In this document: positions 3,246 through 29,760 of the stretch, one piece after another
Numbering within the stretch: the stretch's first letter is position 1
Layout: every line of letters starts with the position of its first letter
NCBI GenBank assembly: GCA_031263985.1
Contig: JAISER010000086.1
Location: 1-32,511, forward strand
Length of the DNA stretch: 32,511 nucleotides
Origin: Clostridiales bacterium
GTDB taxonomy: Bacteria > Bacillota > Clostridia > Lachnospirales > JAISER01
Direction: 5' to 3'
Position numbers and translations under genes: made by a program
The notes under the pieces: model-generated
Seen by the model: the letters and a program-made list of their open reading frames with translations, nothing else
The model's database searches: none
Told to the model about the DNA's origin: nothing

Positions 3246-3473
3246 AGAGACTGTTCAAGGTCCCGCTTTTAGCGGATTTTTTTGTGATGAGTTTTCGCCA
3301 AACGCGGAAGCGTGAACGCCGCGTATATACGCAACGACCGCTGACAAAGCGTGGCGGAAAATAGACACGTCCCAGAACCGCTTCGACGGATTCACGATCG
3401 GACGCCGAAGTCAGGTTTCGGGACAGGTCTAATAAGCCGAAAAGACGCGAAATGGAGATCTTAAACAGGCTCT
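3246..3473. repeat. Family B inverted-repeat element, copy B2 (228 bp), containing D3
   Basis: The left end is AGAGACTGTTCAAGGTC and the right end GATCTTAAACAGGCTCT. Both arms match copy B1 when B1 is inverted, over roughly 60 bp each. Within it, 3363-3430 is a family D segment ending CGGGACAGGTCT. The element ends 21 bp beyond the murA stop codon and could act in transcript ending by forming a long hairpin; that role is inferred. Confidence 0.75.
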
Positions 3474-3494
3474 AAGGCAATATGATCGCTTTCG

Positions 3495-7760: not shown

Positions 7761-7922
7761 AGAGCCTGTTCAAGATCCCCATTTCGCGTCTTTTCGGCTT
7801 ATTAGACCTGTCCCGGAATCTGACTCCGGGCGGATTTTCCACAACGCGGCTTTTTCACTTTTTCGTTTGGCGAAAAATCATCACAAAAAAATCCGCTAAA
7901 AAAGAGATCTTGAACAGGCTCT
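7761..7922. repeat. Family B inverted-repeat element, copy B1 (162 bp)
   Basis: The ends AGAGCCTGTTCAAGATC and GATCTTGAACAGGCTCT form a perfect 17-bp inverted repeat. Relative to B2 it is inverted and lacks about 66 bp in the middle. A fragment of family D (AGACCTGTCCCGGAATC, from 7804) is embedded in its left arm. It is the best preserved pair of B ends in the window. Confidence 0.85.
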
Positions 7923-7926
7923 TAGC

Positions 7927-8031
7927 AATGCTGAACTGAGTCTAAAACATAACCAACCAGGCGAGGCTTGGCGACAAAACCCGGCGTTAAAAAACCGTTC
8001 GGCTGGCTATGGTTTAAACTACGTTCAGTAT
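7927..8031. repeat. Family C inverted-repeat element, copy C2
   Basis: The left end GCTGAACTGAGTCTAAAACA and the right end TGGTTTAAACTACGTTCAGT are inverted copies with mismatches. It starts five bases after the end of B1. The internal CCGTTCGGCTGG resembles C1 and C3. Confidence 0.75.
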
Positions 8032-8119
8032 AAAGCGGCGCTTTTGGGAAGAGCTTTTCTGGACGCGAGAAATAACATCGCGCGGATAAAGCGAATATAA
8101 TGCTTGGAGGTGCATGAAA

Positions 8120-10789: not shown

Positions 10790-10909
10790 AATGACTATCC
10801 AAACAAGTCATAAAGACCTTGGGACTCCGCCCCAAACCCCGCCGGGGTCTTCGACCCCGGACCCCGCGCCGCGCATTTGCGCGGCTTCATGAAGCGATTG
10901 AATAGTCAT
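10790..10909 (+). repeat. Family A inverted-repeat element, copy A2 (120 bp)
   Basis: It is the same length and has the same ends as A1 (one mismatch in the right end, GAATAGTCAT). The 9-bp direct repeat ATAAATTAT flanks it (10781-10789 and 10910-10918). The left copy of this duplication contains the dapB stop codon TAA (10782-10784). The three internal hairpins are conserved. It lies between dapB and the probable operon terminator. Confidence 0.85.
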
Positions 10910-11026
10910 ATAAATTATAGAATAGCTGTAGATCGACATGTGATATATACGGAGCTTTTAAGAAGAAAAACTTACCTCAAAGGAATAAGCTTTCTCACCT
11001 TTAACTTTTAACTGGACAATTTATCG

Positions 11027-16527: not shown

Positions 16528-16647
16528 AGTGACTGTCCAGACAAGTCATAAAGACCTTGGGGCTCCGCCCCAAACCCCGCCGGGGTCTTCGACCCCGGAC
16601 CCCGGCTCCGCGCATTCGCGCGGCTTAATGAAACGATTGGATATCAT
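16528..16647 (+). repeat. Family A inverted-repeat element, copy A3
   Basis: It is 120 bp and similar to A1, with AGTGACTGTCCAG at the left end and TGGATATCAT (one base lost) at the right. The flanks TTTCTTTAA and ATTCTTTAA match in eight of nine bases, consistent with an old target duplication. Here the first hairpin TTGGGGC-TCC-GCCCCAA is perfect. Confidence 0.8.
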
Positions 16648-16727
16648 ATTCTTTAATTCCAAACGAATGCATCATCGGAAATACCACTTCTTTTCTCTTC
16701 CAAGGATAAAGCTTCCCTTTTCTTTAA

Positions 16728-16823
16728 AATGATTATCCAGGCAAAGTTATAAAGACCTTGGGACTCCGCCCCAACCCCCGCTCCGCGCATTCGCGCGGCT
16801 TTAATGAAACGATTGGATATCAT
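16728..16823 (+). repeat. Family A element, copy A4 (96 bp, internal deletion)
   Basis: It has the same ends and flanks as A3 but lacks about 24 bp in the middle, including the CCGGGGTC hairpin. The deletion followed, or accompanied, the tandem duplication. Confidence 0.8.
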
Positions 16824-16902
16824 ATTCTTTAATTCCAAACGAATGCATCATCGGAAATACCGCTTCTTTCCTCTTCCAAGGATAAAGCTTTCTGAAAGGG
16901 AA

Positions 16903-23276: not shown

Positions 23277-23924
23277 CTAGACCATTTTATTTTCAATTAT
23301 AACTAATATGCCTTCTTTAACGCTGATCTCCGCTTTGTCTTCGGTCAGAACGTTACTTAAGCCGCGCGCCGACCCTATAGTGAGCGCGCCGTCGTTTAAG
23401 GGATATTCAAAACCGCGCGTCGTAACGCCTAAAACCGCCGACGTCAGCGGAAACATCGAGATGATCGTCCCCTTGCGCGCCGAAACAGCGCTTATGCCGT
23501 CAGTCAGCGTCACGCGTTCATTTTCCCCTTCCAGAACAGCCGGCGTTTTCGCCGACAGCGCGGGGACAAGCGCGTGAATACTGCCTAAAACATGATCCAG
23601 CCGGCCGTTCAAAGCGCCGAAAACGGTTATGCCGGACACGTTTTTGTCCAGAGCCAGCTTTACGGCGATTTCCAAGTCCGTCATATCCTTTTTCGCGGAA
23701 TAGCGCATAACCGGCACGCCTCGCGATTCGTAAAAATTTAGCGTGTCCGGGTCAACGGAATCCATATCGCCCACGATGTAGTCCGGAGTCAGCCCTAGCG
23801 CTCGGGCGTGACGCAAACCGGAGTCACAGCAGATGATCAGTTCCGTCCCGATATTCACTTTACCGTTAAAGTCCGCGCCCGCGAAAATAATCGCGTTACG
23901 CGCGGCGCCGCTTGAACATGTCAT
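23277..23924 (-). CDS. thiN: Thiamine pyrophosphokinase
   Basis: ThiN transfers pyrophosphate from ATP to thiamine to give the cofactor thiamine diphosphate. The 215-residue protein shows CDSGLRHA, GDMDSVDP, the metal and ATP motif KDMTDLEIAV, and GALNGRLDH, where a Gly is more common than Asn. The C-terminal beta domain (SMFPLTSAVLGVTTRGFEYPL) binds thiamine. I chose the ATG at 23924; a GTG three codons upstream is possible, and both overlap the end of rpe. It is the last gene of the rsmB-to-thiN operon, as in Bacillus. No clear terminator follows. Confidence 0.92.
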   Translation of the reverse strand: MTCSSGAARNAIIFAGADFNGKVNIGTELIICCDSGLRHARALGLTPDYIVGDMDSVDPDTLNFYESRGVPVMRYSAKKDMTDLEIAVKLALDKNVSGITVFGALNGRLDHVLGSIHALVPALSAKTPAVLEGENERVTLTDGISAVSARKGTIISMFPLTSAVLGVTTRGFEYPLNDGALTIGSARGLSNVLTEDKAEISVKEGILVIIENKMV

Positions 23925-24561
23925 AAAACTCACGCACCGCCTGACCTATATCTTTCCGGCCGAATATGGCCGACCCGGCGACTATGACGTTAGCGCCGGC
24001 GTTTATGATGTCCTTTACATTTTCAAGGCGCGCGCCGCCGTCGATCTCTATGTCTATGTCTATGCCTTCACGCGCCGCGAATGATGCCAGTTTTTCGACT
24101 TTCTTAAGCGTCTCGAGCTTGAGCGTCTGTCCCGCGAAACCGGGTTCGACGCTCATAATAAGCGCCATGCCTATGCGGTCCGCCAGGCCAAAGAGCCGCT
24201 CAACGTCAGTGTTCGGCTTTATAGTGACAGCCGGAATCTTATTGAGCTTTTTAACGGATTCTATGTCGGCGCGCAAATTTTCGCTCGCTTCCGCGTGTAT
24301 GTTAATGATGTCGGCGCCGGCGCGCGCAAACGGCTCTATAAATTTCCCCGGATTTTCAACCATTAAATGGATGTCGAAAGTCAAAGACGTAATCTTGCGA
24401 AGCGCTTCGACGACAGGAGGGCCGAACGTTATGTTCGGCGCGAAATGCCCGTCCATAACGTCAACGTGTATGTAATGCGCGCCCGCGCTTTCAACAGCTT
24501 GAACGGCGTCCGCCAGATGTGTAAAATCCGCTGATAATAGGCTTACGGAGAGCTTGATCAT
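23896..24561 (-). CDS. rpe: Ribulose-phosphate 3-epimerase
   Basis: Rpe interconverts ribulose 5-phosphate and xylulose 5-phosphate in the pentose phosphate pathway. The 221-residue TIM barrel shows Ser10 in SLLSADF, the metal site HVDVMDGHFAPN (His32, Asp34) and DIHLMVENP, the phosphate-related VEPGFAGQ and EIDGGA with the second catalytic Asp. AGGGGGA is nine bases before the ATG. The gene follows rsgA by 55 bp and overlaps thiN. Linkage with rsgA and thiN is conserved in Firmicutes. Confidence 0.95.
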   Translation of the reverse strand: MIKLSVSLLSADFTHLADAVQAVESAGAHYIHVDVMDGHFAPNITFGPPVVEALRKITSLTFDIHLMVENPGKFIEPFARAGADIINIHAEASENLRADIESVKKLNKIPAVTIKPNTDVERLFGLADRIGMALIMSVEPGFAGQTLKLETLKKVEKLASFAAREGIDIDIEIDGGARLENVKDIINAGANVIVAGSAIFGRKDIGQAVREFYDMFKRRRA

Positions 24562-24616: not shown

Positions 24617-25480
24617 TCAGCGCGTCATAAACTCAACGTAACGGTCGTAGCGTTCGGGCGATATATCCGCGCCGACGCGCCTTTTGACGGCGCAGTCCGG
24701 TTCATTCAGGTGTTTGCAATCGTTGAAGCGGCAGAGTCCGGCGTAAGGAGAGAACTCCGGAAAAAACGCGCTCATGTTTTTTTTGGCCGCGTCGCTTATG
24801 TCTATCGCCGCGAAGCCCGGCGTATCGACTATAAACCCGCCGTTATCCAGAGCTAAAAGTTCCGCGTGGCGCGTCGTGTGTTTGCCGCGCTGAATTTTCT
24901 CGCTTAATCCGCCCGTTTCCATCGCGTAACGCGATACCAGCGCGTTTATAATCGATGACTTTCCCACGCCGGACGGACCGGAACATACGGTAGTTTCGCC
25001 GGCGAAGGCCGCTCCAAGCTCCGCCAGGCCCGCGCCGGTTTCCGCCGAAACCAGCTCCACTCTGTACCCCGCGTTTTTGTAGATGTCCGTCATGGCGTCA
25101 AACGCCGGCTTTTCGCGTTCTTTGAGTAAATCCAACTTGTTAAAGCAGATGATCGCGGGCACATTGTAGAAAGCCGCCGAGATAAGGAACCTGTCAAGCA
25201 GCGAAGCGTTAAACTTCGGGTTCTTTATCGCGAAAACAATAAGCGCCGCGTCTATGTTCGCTACTCTTGGCCGTTCCAGAAAGCTGCGTCGCGGTTTTAT
25301 AGCGGTTATGGCGCCTTCTTTCAAGCCGTCGCCGGATGGCCGCACCGTCACGTCATCACCTATCGTCGGCGTCACGCCTCTTCTGCGCAATATGCCGCGA
25401 GCGACGCATTTGTACGCCCCGTCGCTCGTGGACACTTCATACAGACCGCCTACGCCTTTTATGATTTTCCCGTCTAGCAT
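24617..25480 (-). CDS. rsgA: Ribosome small subunit-dependent GTPase RsgA
   Basis: RsgA is a circularly permuted GTPase that checks late 30S maturation. The 287 residues have an N-terminal OB fold, then G4 NKLD (114-117) ahead of G1 GPSGVGKSS (168-176) and G3 DTPGF (219-223), the permuted order that defines the family. The C-terminal zinc finger has Cys250, Cys255, His257 and Cys263. GGAG lies seven bases before the ATG. In many Firmicutes it follows prkC almost directly. Here repeat C3 and an IS630 copy (together about 1.3 kb) lie between, so it may need its own promoter; none is obvious. In B. subtilis the homologue is a PrkC substrate, by published work. Confidence 0.95.
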   Translation of the reverse strand: MLDGKIIKGVGGLYEVSTSDGAYKCVARGILRRRGVTPTIGDDVTVRPSGDGLKEGAITAIKPRRSFLERPRVANIDAALIVFAIKNPKFNASLLDRFLISAAFYNVPAIICFNKLDLLKEREKPAFDAMTDIYKNAGYRVELVSAETGAGLAELGAAFAGETTVCSGPSGVGKSSIINALVSRYAMETGGLSEKIQRGKHTTRHAELLALDNGGFIVDTPGFAAIDISDAAKKNMSAFFPEFSPYAGLCRFNDCKHLNEPDCAVKRRVGADISPERYDRYVEFMTR

Positions 25481-25601
25481 TGACTCACTCCGTTTTTTTA
25501 AGAACTGATGAAGACGTTGAATGCCGAAGGCTTCGTTTAGAGAAGGCGCTGACCACAGGTTTTCATCACGCCGCTTACGCCGCCAAAAACACGCGTTTCA
25601 T

Positions 25602-25686
25602 TAGCGCTGAACTCAGTTTGAAACATAGCCGAAACCGGGCGCGAAAAAAGGCCGTTCGGATGATCATGGTTTAGACTGAGAAAAGT
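25602..25686. repeat. Family C inverted-repeat element, copy C3
   Basis: The left end AGCGCTGAACTCAGTTTGAA matches C1 and C2; the right part CATGGTTTAGACTGAG is complementary to it, but the outermost bases have diverged. The middle has GGCCGTTCGGATGATCATGG. It lies right after the original prkC stop and adjoins the IS630 copy. Confidence 0.65.
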
Positions 25687-25688
25687 TA

Positions 25689-26918
25689 GCGCTCTATAAA
25701 TACTAAAAGTTATAAAATGATTGGGTATAGCCTTTTCAGTTTTGTTCTGGCCTCTGCGGCAGTAAAATGCCATTCGACCCCTTTTTGCGTACTGTTCCGC
25801 CGCGTGCGCCAAACTTCAAGCTCCGCGTTAAGCGCTTCAATCTCAGCGATTCGCCTGCTTCCGAGCCATTGCGCCGCGAGTGGGAACAACTCGCATTCAG
25901 CTATATTTAACCAACTGCCATGTTTCGGCGTGAAATGGATTTCAAGACGTTGCGCGAGGCGGAAAGCTTCCTCCGGCGTAAAGGCTTCGTAAAGCGAAGA
26001 AATTGTATGCGTGTTCAAGTTATCCATCACAAGAACGACTTTTTCGGCATCAGGGTATTACTCATCAAGCAACCATTTTACTTGGCCAGCCCAATCCCGT
26101 TTTGTTCTGTGCGGTAACGCTTCCGCTTTTCGCCAGCCGGCAAGTCGCTCAGTAAAGATTAAAGATGCTACAGGAGCCATTACGTATATACTCGTTATCG
26201 ACCTTTTCTGTAGATCCCGGGCGCGCGGGCAATGGATCCCGCGCGTGATCCAGTAATTGATAAGGTTTTTCGTCCATACGCACAATGGGCTTCCGCCGGT
26301 TATATGAGTGGGCATAGGCAGCTAGGACATCTTCCATAGCCGCGACAAAAGCGCTGTTTTTCTCCGGAGGAATGCGCCAACAGGTTTTCAAGTGAGGCTT
26401 AAACTGTGTTTTTTTAAAAGGTTGTGTACCGACATATGAGACAAAGAATCAATCAAGTTAAGCTCAATGCTCTTTTCCGCTATAAGGCGCACTGTCCATC
26501 TCGCGCAACCATCAGGCGCCGGACCGCAGGCAAGCGCGATGATACGGGCTTCCACTTCGCCGGTTATCTTCGGCTCTACCGGCGGCTTGTCACGCTTCTT
26601 TCTTCGCAAAAACGCGGAGACGTCCTCCGCTTCTAAAAAAGCGGCCTTTACCTTTGTGATTGTGGTCAAGCCGACATTTAATCGTCGCGCTATCTCACTG
26701 AATGTCACCGCTTTTACGTTTTTTGATGTGTCCAACAATAATATGATTTGCGCCCATTTGATTAATTTTGCGCTGTGTACGCCGGTTTCGCTGAACTTTT
26801 CTAATTCCTTTCGTTGCTCCGCGCTCAACTTTATTTCATTTTTTTTCATGCGGTATCACCTCGCGCATAGGATACCACATATCAGAAATTATTGCGACTT
26901 TTAGTATTTACTGCGCGC
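25689..26918 (-). mobile_element. IS630-family insertion sequence (1230 bp), in the prkC stop codon
   Basis: The element has 22-bp inverted ends that agree in 19 positions, sharing TAAATACTAAAAGT (25689-25710 and 26897-26918). TA flanks both sides (25687-25688 and 26919-26920), the TA duplication expected for IS630. The prkC stop is now TAG, with TA from the target and G from the element; removing the element restores TAA. Its transposase is broken, so it can no longer move by itself. Confidence 0.85.
25710..26849 (-). pseudogene. IS630-family transposase, disrupted
   Basis: Three frames together make one IS630-type DDE transposase of about 380 residues. Part one (26849-26388, 153 residues) has the helix-turn-helix region with FSEIARRLNVGLTTITKVKA. 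Part two starts at a seven-A run (26409-26415), a possible A_AAA_AAA -1 slippery site, and continues FKPHLKTCWRIPPEKN to MDEKPYQLL with the first Asp. One extra base near 26160 then breaks the frame (SIF / IFTERLAGW). Part three has an in-frame TAA at 26058-26060 before [18 protein letters not shown] (second Asp) and ends with [11 protein letters not shown] (the Glu). The first shift may be programmed, as reported for some IS630 members; the other two lesions are inactivating. Confidence 0.88.
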
Positions 26919-29011
26919 TAGCTAACCGCATCACGGCTCTTTATCGCAGGTTCGTCGCGATAGTATATCTGTCCCGTATCTACGTCGCTTACAAGCGCTT
27001 GATACGTGACGCCGGATTCGGAAACATATATATTAATCGGAAAAGAGCTCGCGGCGGAATCCTGAGAATAAAAGCGGCTTGACCCATCCGGCGATATCTT
27101 GATGATTTCAACGTGGACGGAGGTCACCCCGTTCGGTATGTTCCCCGTCGGATCCACTGTTATATAGGCCGGCGATTTAATCGGGACTATAACTTCCGCG
27201 CTCTGCGGTTCACCTTGCGATTCCGCCGGCGTTTCCGATTCAGGCGGCTGTTCAGGCGCGGTTTCCGAAGGCGTTGTTCCCGAAGGCGTTGTTCCAGAAG
27301 ACGCGGTTCCCGAGCTGATTACGAGCGTTATTATGGCGTTGACCGGCACTTCGGCGTCTTTTTCAAGTGACTGAGATAGAACCGCTCCTACCGGCATATC
27401 GCTGGGCGACGTGGAGTTATGACCTATTTGCAGACCAGCCTCTTGAAGACGGCGCACCGCGATGCTTTCAGGCAAGCCCACGACGTTCGGCGTCTTTACG
27501 GTAGTCGTTTCAGGCCCTTTGCTTATATAAATCTTTATTGTGGCGTTGGGACTCGCGAGCGCGTCGGCCGGCGGTTTTTGATCCACCACGACCTGGAACG
27601 GGTATGTGTCGCTGCTGACCCATTCGCTGTCGTCCATGTGAAAATCCGACCCGCGAAACATTTCGCGCGCTTCGTCGTAAGACTTGCCGACGAAATTCGG
27701 CACGCGAACCTTGGTTGTGCCTTCGCTGACGACTATATCTATGGAATCTCCGGCGTAGATCAAGCTTCCGGAAACCGTGCCTTGGCTTATTACGATCCCT
27801 TTCGCGAAGTTGTCGTCCGGCGCGTATTCTATAGTAAGCGTAACGCCTTCATCGGAAGCTATGTCTTGAGCTTCGTCAAGCGTCTTGCCGACCAATTCGG
27901 GCGCGTTCAACTGTTCAGGCGCGGACGGAGGCATTATGTCGCATCCGCGTAAAACGGCGCCGCCTATTGCGATTATAACCGCTATTATCACAACGCTTGT
28001 CGCGATAGCCGCGATTATAACTTTGCGTTCGGACGACTTATCAACGGCGTATTCGTCATCGTCGCCGTAATCGTCGCTGAAATCGTCTATTACGCCGCCT
28101 TTTCGGATCTCGTCTATATCCTCCGCGCTCATGCGGATAGTCGGCGAGTCAAAATCTTCGGGCGATTTCACGAAGTTACCCGAAGAATTCGTAAGCGCGC
28201 GCTTAAGGTCATTTACAAGCTCTTCCGTAGATTGATAGCGCTTCGCGGACTGTTTCTCCGTACATTTACGTATAATTTTATCAATACTTTCAGATATATT
28301 TTCGTTATACGGCTTTATCTCCGGGAATTCGTCATTTATATGCATAAGCGCCACTGAAACGGGAGTTTCGGAGTTAAACGGCAAAACGCCGGTGGCCATC
28401 TCGTACATTACTATGCCAAGCGAATATATATCGCTTTTAAAGTCAATATATCCGCCGCGCGCCTGCTCCGGCGAAAAATAGTGTACGGAACCCATAGCGC
28501 CGCCGTTTGTAGCCATAGTGACGCCTGTCGCGGCGCGCGCTATGCCAAAGTCAGTCACTTTAATGGCGCCCGTCGTCGTAACGAGTATATTTTGCGGTTT
28601 TATATCTCGGTGTATGATGCCGTTAGCGTGGGCGTGCGCCAGCGCCACGGCTATTTGCGTCGCGACGCCTAATATTTCGTCGTTTTCGAATGGGGCGCGT
28701 CTTTCTATAAGGTCTTTAAGCGTGACGCCGTTTATATATTCCATTACGATGTAATGGATGTTTTTTTCTTGACCTACGTCATAGACGCTTACGATGTTAT
28801 GGTTTGAAAGGCTGGCGGCCGAACGGGCCTCCGTTTTAAAACGAGCGCGGAATTCGTCGTCGTTCACGAATTCCTCACGCATTACTTTAAATGACACGAA
28901 ACGGTCAAGCTTACTGTCTTTAGCCCTATAAACGTTCGCCATGCCGCCGGAACCTATTTTTTCGATGATTTCATAGCGCGAGGCGACTACGGCTCCGGGG
29001 TTTAATATCAT
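26918..29011 (-). CDS. prkC: Serine/threonine protein kinase with PASTA domains
   Basis: PrkC (Stk/PknB type) is a membrane kinase that senses peptidoglycan fragments and phosphorylates cell-wall, translation and metabolic proteins. Of 697 residues, 13-275 form the kinase: GSGGMANVY, Lys42, Glu61, HRDIKPQN (134-141), DFG (154-156) and SPEQA. An acidic linker leads to a single membrane segment (about 330-352). Three extracellular PASTA domains follow (about 368-431, 435-499, 505-567), then a Thr/Pro/Glu-rich linker with a GTTPS repeat and a C-terminal beta domain (606-697). The start overlaps prpC by four bases. An IS630 copy is inserted in the stop codon but leaves the coding sequence unchanged. 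The kinase appears active by its residues. Confidence 0.96.
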   Translation of the reverse strand: MILNPGAVVASRYEIIEKIGSGGMANVYRAKDSKLDRFVSFKVMREEFVNDDEFRARFKTEARSAASLSNHNIVSVYDVGQEKNIHYIVMEYINGVTLKDLIERRAPFENDEILGVATQIAVALAHAHANGIIHRDIKPQNILVTTTGAIKVTDFGIARAATGVTMATNGGAMGSVHYFSPEQARGGYIDFKSDIYSLGIVMYEMATGVLPFNSETPVSVALMHINDEFPEIKPYNENISESIDKIIRKCTEKQSAKRYQSTEELVNDLKRALTNSSGNFVKSPEDFDSPTIRMSAEDIDEIRKGGVIDDFSDDYGDDDEYAVDKSSERKVIIAAIATSVVIIAVIIAIGGAVLRGCDIMPPSAPEQLNAPELVGKTLDEAQDIASDEGVTLTIEYAPDDNFAKGIVISQGTVSGSLIYAGDSIDIVVSEGTTKVRVPNFVGKSYDEAREMFRGSDFHMDDSEWVSSDTYPFQVVVDQKPPADALASPNATIKIYISKGPETTTVKTPNVVGLPESIAVRRLQEAGLQIGHNSTSPSDMPVGAVLSQSLEKDAEVPVNAIITLVISSGTASSGTTPSGTTPSETAPEQPPESETPAESQGEPQSAEVIVPIKSPAYITVDPTGNIPNGVTSVHVEIIKISPDGSSRFYSQDSAASSFPINIYVSESGVTYQALVSDVDTGQIYYRDEPAIKSRDAVS

Positions 29012-29760
29012 ACGCTCACCTCGCTTACTTCTATAAGCACAACGGAGATGTTATCCTCTCCGCCGTTTTCATTCGCAAGACCGAGCAATCTTTCGCACTT
29101 TTCATTAAGGCCTGAACTTTCGCAAATTATACCGGAAATCATATCGTCTTGCACCATGTTTGACAGTCCGTCGGAACATATGAGGGCAAAATCGCCCGAT
29201 GAGACATCCTTCACAATACGGTCTATCTTTAGCGTTTCCTCCGTGCCGAGCGCGCGCGTAATCAAATGGCGCTGAGGATGGCTGCGCGCCTCGTTTTCCG
29301 TTATTTCGCCCGCTTTTACCATCTCGTTGACATAAGTGTGATCTGTCGAAAGCCGCTCTATACCGCCGTCTTTTTTAATCAAGTAAATCCTGCTGTCACC
29401 TATGTGCGCCGCGTACAGCTTACCCCTATCGAGCACGCACAGCGAAAAAGTCGCGCCCATGCCGCTGAAAGCGTGGTCGGTCATAGATATTTCAAAGACC
29501 TTTTCGTTCGCATAGCTCGCGCCGCGCGCTAACTCCTCCATAATGTCAACGTCGCCGTCCATAGACGCCATATGTTCAATATAATCACGAAAAAAAGCGA
29601 TGCCCTTCTGGCTCGCGACTTCGCCGGCGTTATGGCCGCCCATACCGTCAGACACAATGTATAGGTTCGGCAAGGCGCCTACCGGCTCGTTGGACACGAA
29701 TATAGAGTCTTCATTATTATGCCTGACTTTTCCAACGTCAGTCATCCCTGAACCGTTCAA
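29008..29760 (-). CDS. prpC: PP2C-type protein phosphatase
   Basis: PrpC (Stp) removes phosphates placed by PrkC. The 250-residue protein has the PP2C metal-binding motifs: TDVGKVRHNNED (7-18), SDGMGGHNAGEVAS (37-50), the central HIGDSRIYL, SDGLSN and GGEDNISVVLIE near the end. The start is TTG at 29760; GGGAG lies about 12 bases upstream, somewhat far, and an ATG five codons downstream is less likely by homology. It overlaps prkC by four bases (ATGA), so the pair is translationally coupled. A GC-rich 212-bp gap separates it from rlmN. Confidence 0.94.
   Translation of the reverse strand: MNGSGMTDVGKVRHNNEDSIFVSNEPVGALPNLYIVSDGMGGHNAGEVASQKGIAFFRDYIEHMASMDGDVDIMEELARGASYANEKVFEISMTDHAFSGMGATFSLCVLDRGKLYAAHIGDSRIYLIKKDGGIERLSTDHTYVNEMVKAGEITENEARSHPQRHLITRALGTEETLKIDRIVKDVSSGDFALICSDGLSNMVQDDMISGIICESSGLNEKCERLLGLANENGGEDNISVVLIEVSEVSV

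Follow-up and report, generated by a model that had tools for sequence, protein, structure and literature searches.

An IS630-family remnant and a C3 repeat between prkC and rsgA in a Clostridiales bacterium

Gene order and features of the locus

The window, a stretch of 32,511 nucleotides, is one contig of an assembly of 2.1 Mb in 124 contigs that is 89.8% complete. It carries the genes of a PP2C phosphatase of the Stp1/PrpC type, the kinase PrkC, RsgA, Rpe and ThiN, together with two mobile elements that lie between prkC and rsgA (Table 1). In genes, order and strand this cluster is like that of Firmicutes, in which rpe and thiN come after prpC-prkC-rsgA(cpgA), but it is unlike the latter in the break of 1,437 nt between prkC and rsgA (PMC6449344). 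The genes prpC, prkC and cpgA (rsgA) are transcribed together in Bacillus subtilis, where the CpgA protein is also a target of PrkC (PMC6449344), so that the separation of the two genes could matter for regulation.

The arrangement stp1(PP2C)-prkC-rsgA-rpe is conserved in the comparison set of 27 prkC-rsgA loci, which come from 26 other genomes of the same taxonomic order (one contig is present twice). The gap between prkC and rsgA in these loci ranges from -14 to +33 nt with a median of about 5, against 1,437 nt in the window. This agrees with a preliminary description of the DNA, in which the two genes were said to be normally adjacent and here separated. The same description put the foreign sequence at about 1.3 kb. 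The insertion sequence (IS) of 1,230 nt and the C3 repeat of about 85 nt account for this figure, but 120 nt of further spacer remain when both are taken out. A search of the genome contigs for an empty site yielded just one prkC, of 48% identity.

Table 1. Coordinates of the genes and inserted elements in the window
Feature	Position	Strand	Basis or remark
thiN, thiamine pyrophosphokinase, intact	23277..23933	-	TIGR01378
rpe, intact	23896..24561	-	TIGR01163
rsgA (cpgA), 287 aa, intact	24617..25480	-	TIGR00157, PF03193
Residual spacer 5' of rsgA	25481..25601	-	no second copy found in a search across the genome; GGAG (Shine-Dalgarno-like) ahead of rsgA ATG
TAG, putative left target duplicate of C3	25602..25604	.	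at the TNA position of the family; partner TAG is 25687-25688 + 26921 with the IS set aside
C3 MITE copy (77-nt class)	25605..25686	.	79-nt core 25607-25685 between inverted ends
TA on rsgA side of IS	25687..25688	.	putative target duplicate; also within right-hand TAG of C3
IS630-family insertion sequence, single copy, decayed, 1,230 bp	25689..26918	-	NF033545; PF13358 and PF13565 on pieces
IS left terminal inverted repeat, 22 bp	25689..25710	+	19/22 identical to right end
Transposase C-terminal piece (DDE)	25713..26174	-	second frameshift ~26140-26165; in-frame TAA ~26058-26060
Transposase N-terminal piece (HTH)	26388..26849	-	first frameshift at A7 run ~26404-26419
IS right terminal inverted repeat, 22 bp	26897..26918	-	19/22 identical to left end
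TA on prkC side of IS	26919..26920	.	putative target duplicate; first two bases of prkC TAG stop
prkC, Stk1-family PASTA Ser/Thr kinase, 697 aa, complete	26918..29011	-	NF033483 562.5 bits; C-terminal alignment
Stp1/PrpC-type PP2C phosphatase, intact	29008..29760	-	NF033484

The IS630-family element

The transposase of the element shares the reading direction of prkC and rsgA. When it is read through its breaks, it matches NF033545 with E = 6.5e-48 and 163.7 bits (cut-off 100), which is far beyond chance, and its separate pieces match PF13565 (HTH) and PF13358 (DDE_3). The terminal inverted repeats (TIRs), GCGCTCTATAAATACTAAAAGT and GCGCGCAGTAAATACTAAAAGT, are the best among the TA-flanked pairs found. 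TA is present on both sides of the element, a putative 2-bp target duplicate which alone carries little weight. The transposase match, the TIRs and the two TA dinucleotides bear out the earlier assignment to the IS630 family. The element is like the members of this family (IS630-Tc1-mariner superfamily; NF033545) in its HTH and DDE transposase, its TIRs, its flanking TA and its length of about 1.2 kb; it is unlike the live members in that it is a dead copy.

The element is a decayed IS630 family member with no intact transposase. Set against an intact relative of 413 aa that is 45% identical and comes from the same taxonomic order, the transposase proves to be a pseudogene with two frameshifts and one TAA; the nearest intact relatives found in the taxonomic order are 45-47% identical. 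Programmed -1 frameshifting at the A7 run was considered and rejected: the frame of the relative is continuous and the window copy is broken at further places, so that decay is the simpler reading.

Further copies of the IS were sought throughout the genome and none was found. A genome search with the IS ends returned just the two ends of this copy, the weaker matches staying below the control. The transposase is a pseudogene and the element is present as a single copy in the MAG, and the insertion is therefore considered old. TIRs were also sought in distant relatives of the IS in other genomes, and none could be pinned down; among plasmids, the IS had a single weak match, an IS630 transposase of Paenibacillus. 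The genome as a whole contains 34 DDE_3 matches, many of them broken.

The preliminary description looked to other copies of this IS for duplication of TA. The genome holds no such copies, but in another IS630 group of the same genome TA precedes about 19 of 22 ends, which fits the TA target of the family.

The C3 repeat family

The second element between prkC and rsgA belongs to C3, an independent and lineage-specific MITE. The C3 end CTGAACTCAGTnTnAAnCATAnC has 168 occurrences in the genome at no more than 3 mismatches, while the reversed control has 0. The copies are of three sizes (77, 100 and about 155 nt), with inverted ends and no coding capacity, and the flanks outside the core have the form TNA-YR...YR-TNA. 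In 20 of 30 copies the triplet on the left is the same as that on the right, against a mean of 7.6 and a maximum of 15 in 10,000 shuffles; C3 therefore duplicates a 3-bp TNA target.

A group of the IS5 family duplicates a TNA target. The search for an IS5-type source of C3 yielded, in the loci read, a few broken DDE_Tnp_1 pieces, none bearing C3 ends. No transposase gene that could mark an autonomous parent was found between C3-like ends in these loci, including the PF01609 and PF13586 loci, and the window has no Rfam matches. C3 is like the bacterial MITEs RUP of pneumococcus and Correia/NEMIS of Neisseria in its size (about 80-155 bp), high copy number, inverted ends, target duplication and mostly intergenic position (PMC2229807). 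It is unlike them in that the TNA triplet is duplicated, not TA (PMC2229807). It also differs in that no parent IS with C3 ends was found and in that C3 is carried by none of the 294 other genomes of the taxonomic order in which it was sought.

The window contains three copies of C3, at 1539-1618, 7931-8035 and 25607-25685, and further copies are found at loci L112-L151. At L133 (G000:C96:4926-5556) three C3 copies have the same orientation and near-identical flanks, which suggests that a unit holding C3 was duplicated in tandem. An intrinsic-terminator-like stem, ACCGT-NNNN-ACGGT-CTTTTT, is present in six copies (L112, L118, L119, L120, L124 and L134) and not in the copy at 25607.

Other repeats were also observed. 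A second repeat with the end AGAGCCTGTTCAAGATCTC, which may be another MITE, occurs in inverted pairs at 1646-1675, 3246-3476 and 7761-7925 of the window and at L063-L082, often beside C3 copies and IS630 remnants. A third family (AAGTCATAAAGACCTTGGGACTCCGCCCCAAACCCCGC ... TTAATGAAACGATTGGATA) is located at 362-482, 10790-10910, 16528-16648 and 16744-16890, with two tandem copies at 16528-16890. An IS630 group at L064 (G000:C30) and L065-L081 has the ends TAGTAAGATGTTCTTGAAAAAGTAAC and TAGTTAAATGCTATTGAAACAGTAAC; many of its copies are broken, and nearly all of its ends are preceded by TA.

Probable nested insertion at the prkC stop codon and its possible consequences

The present stop codon of prkC, TAG at 26918-26920 on the minus strand, consists of TA derived from the target and a G contributed by the end of the IS. 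When the IS is taken out, the joined flanks read AGTTAGCTAACC and the stop becomes TAA (minus strand AGCTAACT), so that PrkC is unchanged. This is what the preliminary description had claimed, including the identity of the upstream TA with the first two bases of the TAG. When both the IS and C3 are taken out, prkC would end in AGC TAA TGA at 120 nt from rsgA, with PrkC still unchanged. In the C-terminal alignment the end of PrkC coincides with that of its relatives within alignment uncertainty, which indicates that the protein is not truncated. The preliminary description had named a longer PrkC in relatives as evidence against its view; in this alignment none of the relatives, which range from 641 to 727 aa, clearly runs past the present end.

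The right end of the window copy of C3 is degenerate, reading CTGAGAAAAGT instead of the usual CTGAGTTCAGYR. With the IS set aside, this end is followed by TAG, and C3 is thus bounded by TAG on both sides. To read this TAG as a duplicate, one base must be assumed lost from the C3 end, and the match could be a coincidence. For this reason the landing of the IS in the TA of the prkC-side target duplicate of C3 is regarded as likely rather than proved. The reconstructed empty-site words are GACTGAGAAAAGTTAGCTAACCGC with C3 only and TTTCATTAGCTAACCGCATC with neither element.

It is very probable that two transposons entered the gap between prkC and rsgA one after the other, first C3 and then the IS630-family element, and left every protein intact. 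In the first step, C3 would have entered a TNA-type target, the TAG overlapping the prkC stop, with duplication of the triplet and regeneration of TAA. In the second step, the IS would have entered the TA inside the prkC-side duplicate of C3, and duplication of this TA would have produced the present TAG stop. The IS would then have decayed to a pseudogene. The end of PrkC would be kept at every step since both elements duplicate an A/T-rich target within the stop codon. The separate, nested origin of IS and C3 and the death of the IS are points absent from the preliminary description.

The 205-nt spacer offers just about 8 TA sites, and TAA and TAG stop codons inherently contain TA. An insertion at a stop codon is neutral because such a hit regenerates a stop, and special targeting of the stop codon need not be assumed. 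The genes neighbouring C3 copies lie at mixed distances and in mixed orientations, with no clear preference of C3 for stop codons.

The genes rsgA, rpe and thiN are intact beside a decayed IS, which suggests that they continue to be used by some route. They are probably still transcribed, either by read-through along the sense strand of the transposase or from a promoter invisible to sequence scans. A polar insertion, which would have severed these genes from the stp1-prkC promoter and lowered their expression, is unlikely. In its favour, genes with co-transcribed counterparts in Bacillus subtilis (PMC6449344) here lie 1,437 nt apart, one terminator-like stem lies on the operon strand at 26614-26630, and Rho action could be invited by the untranslated RNA of the frameshifted transposase. 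However, the terminator-like sites number 2 where 2.8 are expected by chance, the window C3 copy has no terminator-like hairpin, and the downstream genes are intact though the IS is old enough for decay. Terminator-like stems are found in 8 of 33 C3 copies, against 1.6 expected from simple shuffles, the copy at 25607 being among those that lack them. The C3 RNA on the operon strand folds no better than shuffles (z 0.48); the value for the other strand is z -2.2.

IS elements often supply new promoters for adjoining genes. A promoter from the IS or C3 that drives rsgA-rpe-thiN separately from the kinase would accord with the intact state of the three genes, but it must be considered unlikely: a scan of 25300-27100 for consensus-like promoters gave no sigma-70-like match scoring 9/12 or more on the operon strand. 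The 1.44-kb spacer has three 8/12 promoter-like sites on the operon strand, which are rarer there than the window average of 4.7 per kb. With promoter-like sites sparse, terminators at chance and C3 without a stem, polarity and a new promoter are possible effects that these findings do not support, although the preliminary description had called one or the other likely.

Arrival of IS and C3 as one composite unit, with C3 a part of the IS, is hardly credible: the two abut within a few bases, but C3 is found many dozens of times without the IS, the IS is bounded by TIRs of its own and by flanking TA, with C3 lying outside, and IS ends and C3 ends show no resemblance, so that this reading is already contradicted. 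A wrong joining of the IS into the contig, conceivable in a 124-contig genome with many repeats, is extremely improbable, since an IS present only once offers no obvious place for a mis-join and the flanking genes on both sides follow the conserved gene order of the taxonomic order.

As two successive insertions, the locus is a clean but ordinary example of nested insertion in an intergenic gap. A conserved signalling and ribosome-biogenesis operon was opened by about 1.3 kb with no protein touched, and this was harmless to the proteins because the targets that both elements pick and duplicate are present in stop codons. Of more use is a by-product of the analysis, the high-copy MITE family C3, which targets TNA and has no known parent. 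It may be suggested, as a speculation of low probability, that C3 forms a MITE family which is undescribed and restricted to its lineage, that its TNA target makes it harmless in stop codons and that its edges serve as landing pads for transposons, so that nested insertions would accumulate where operon genes meet and conserved operons would gradually be split.
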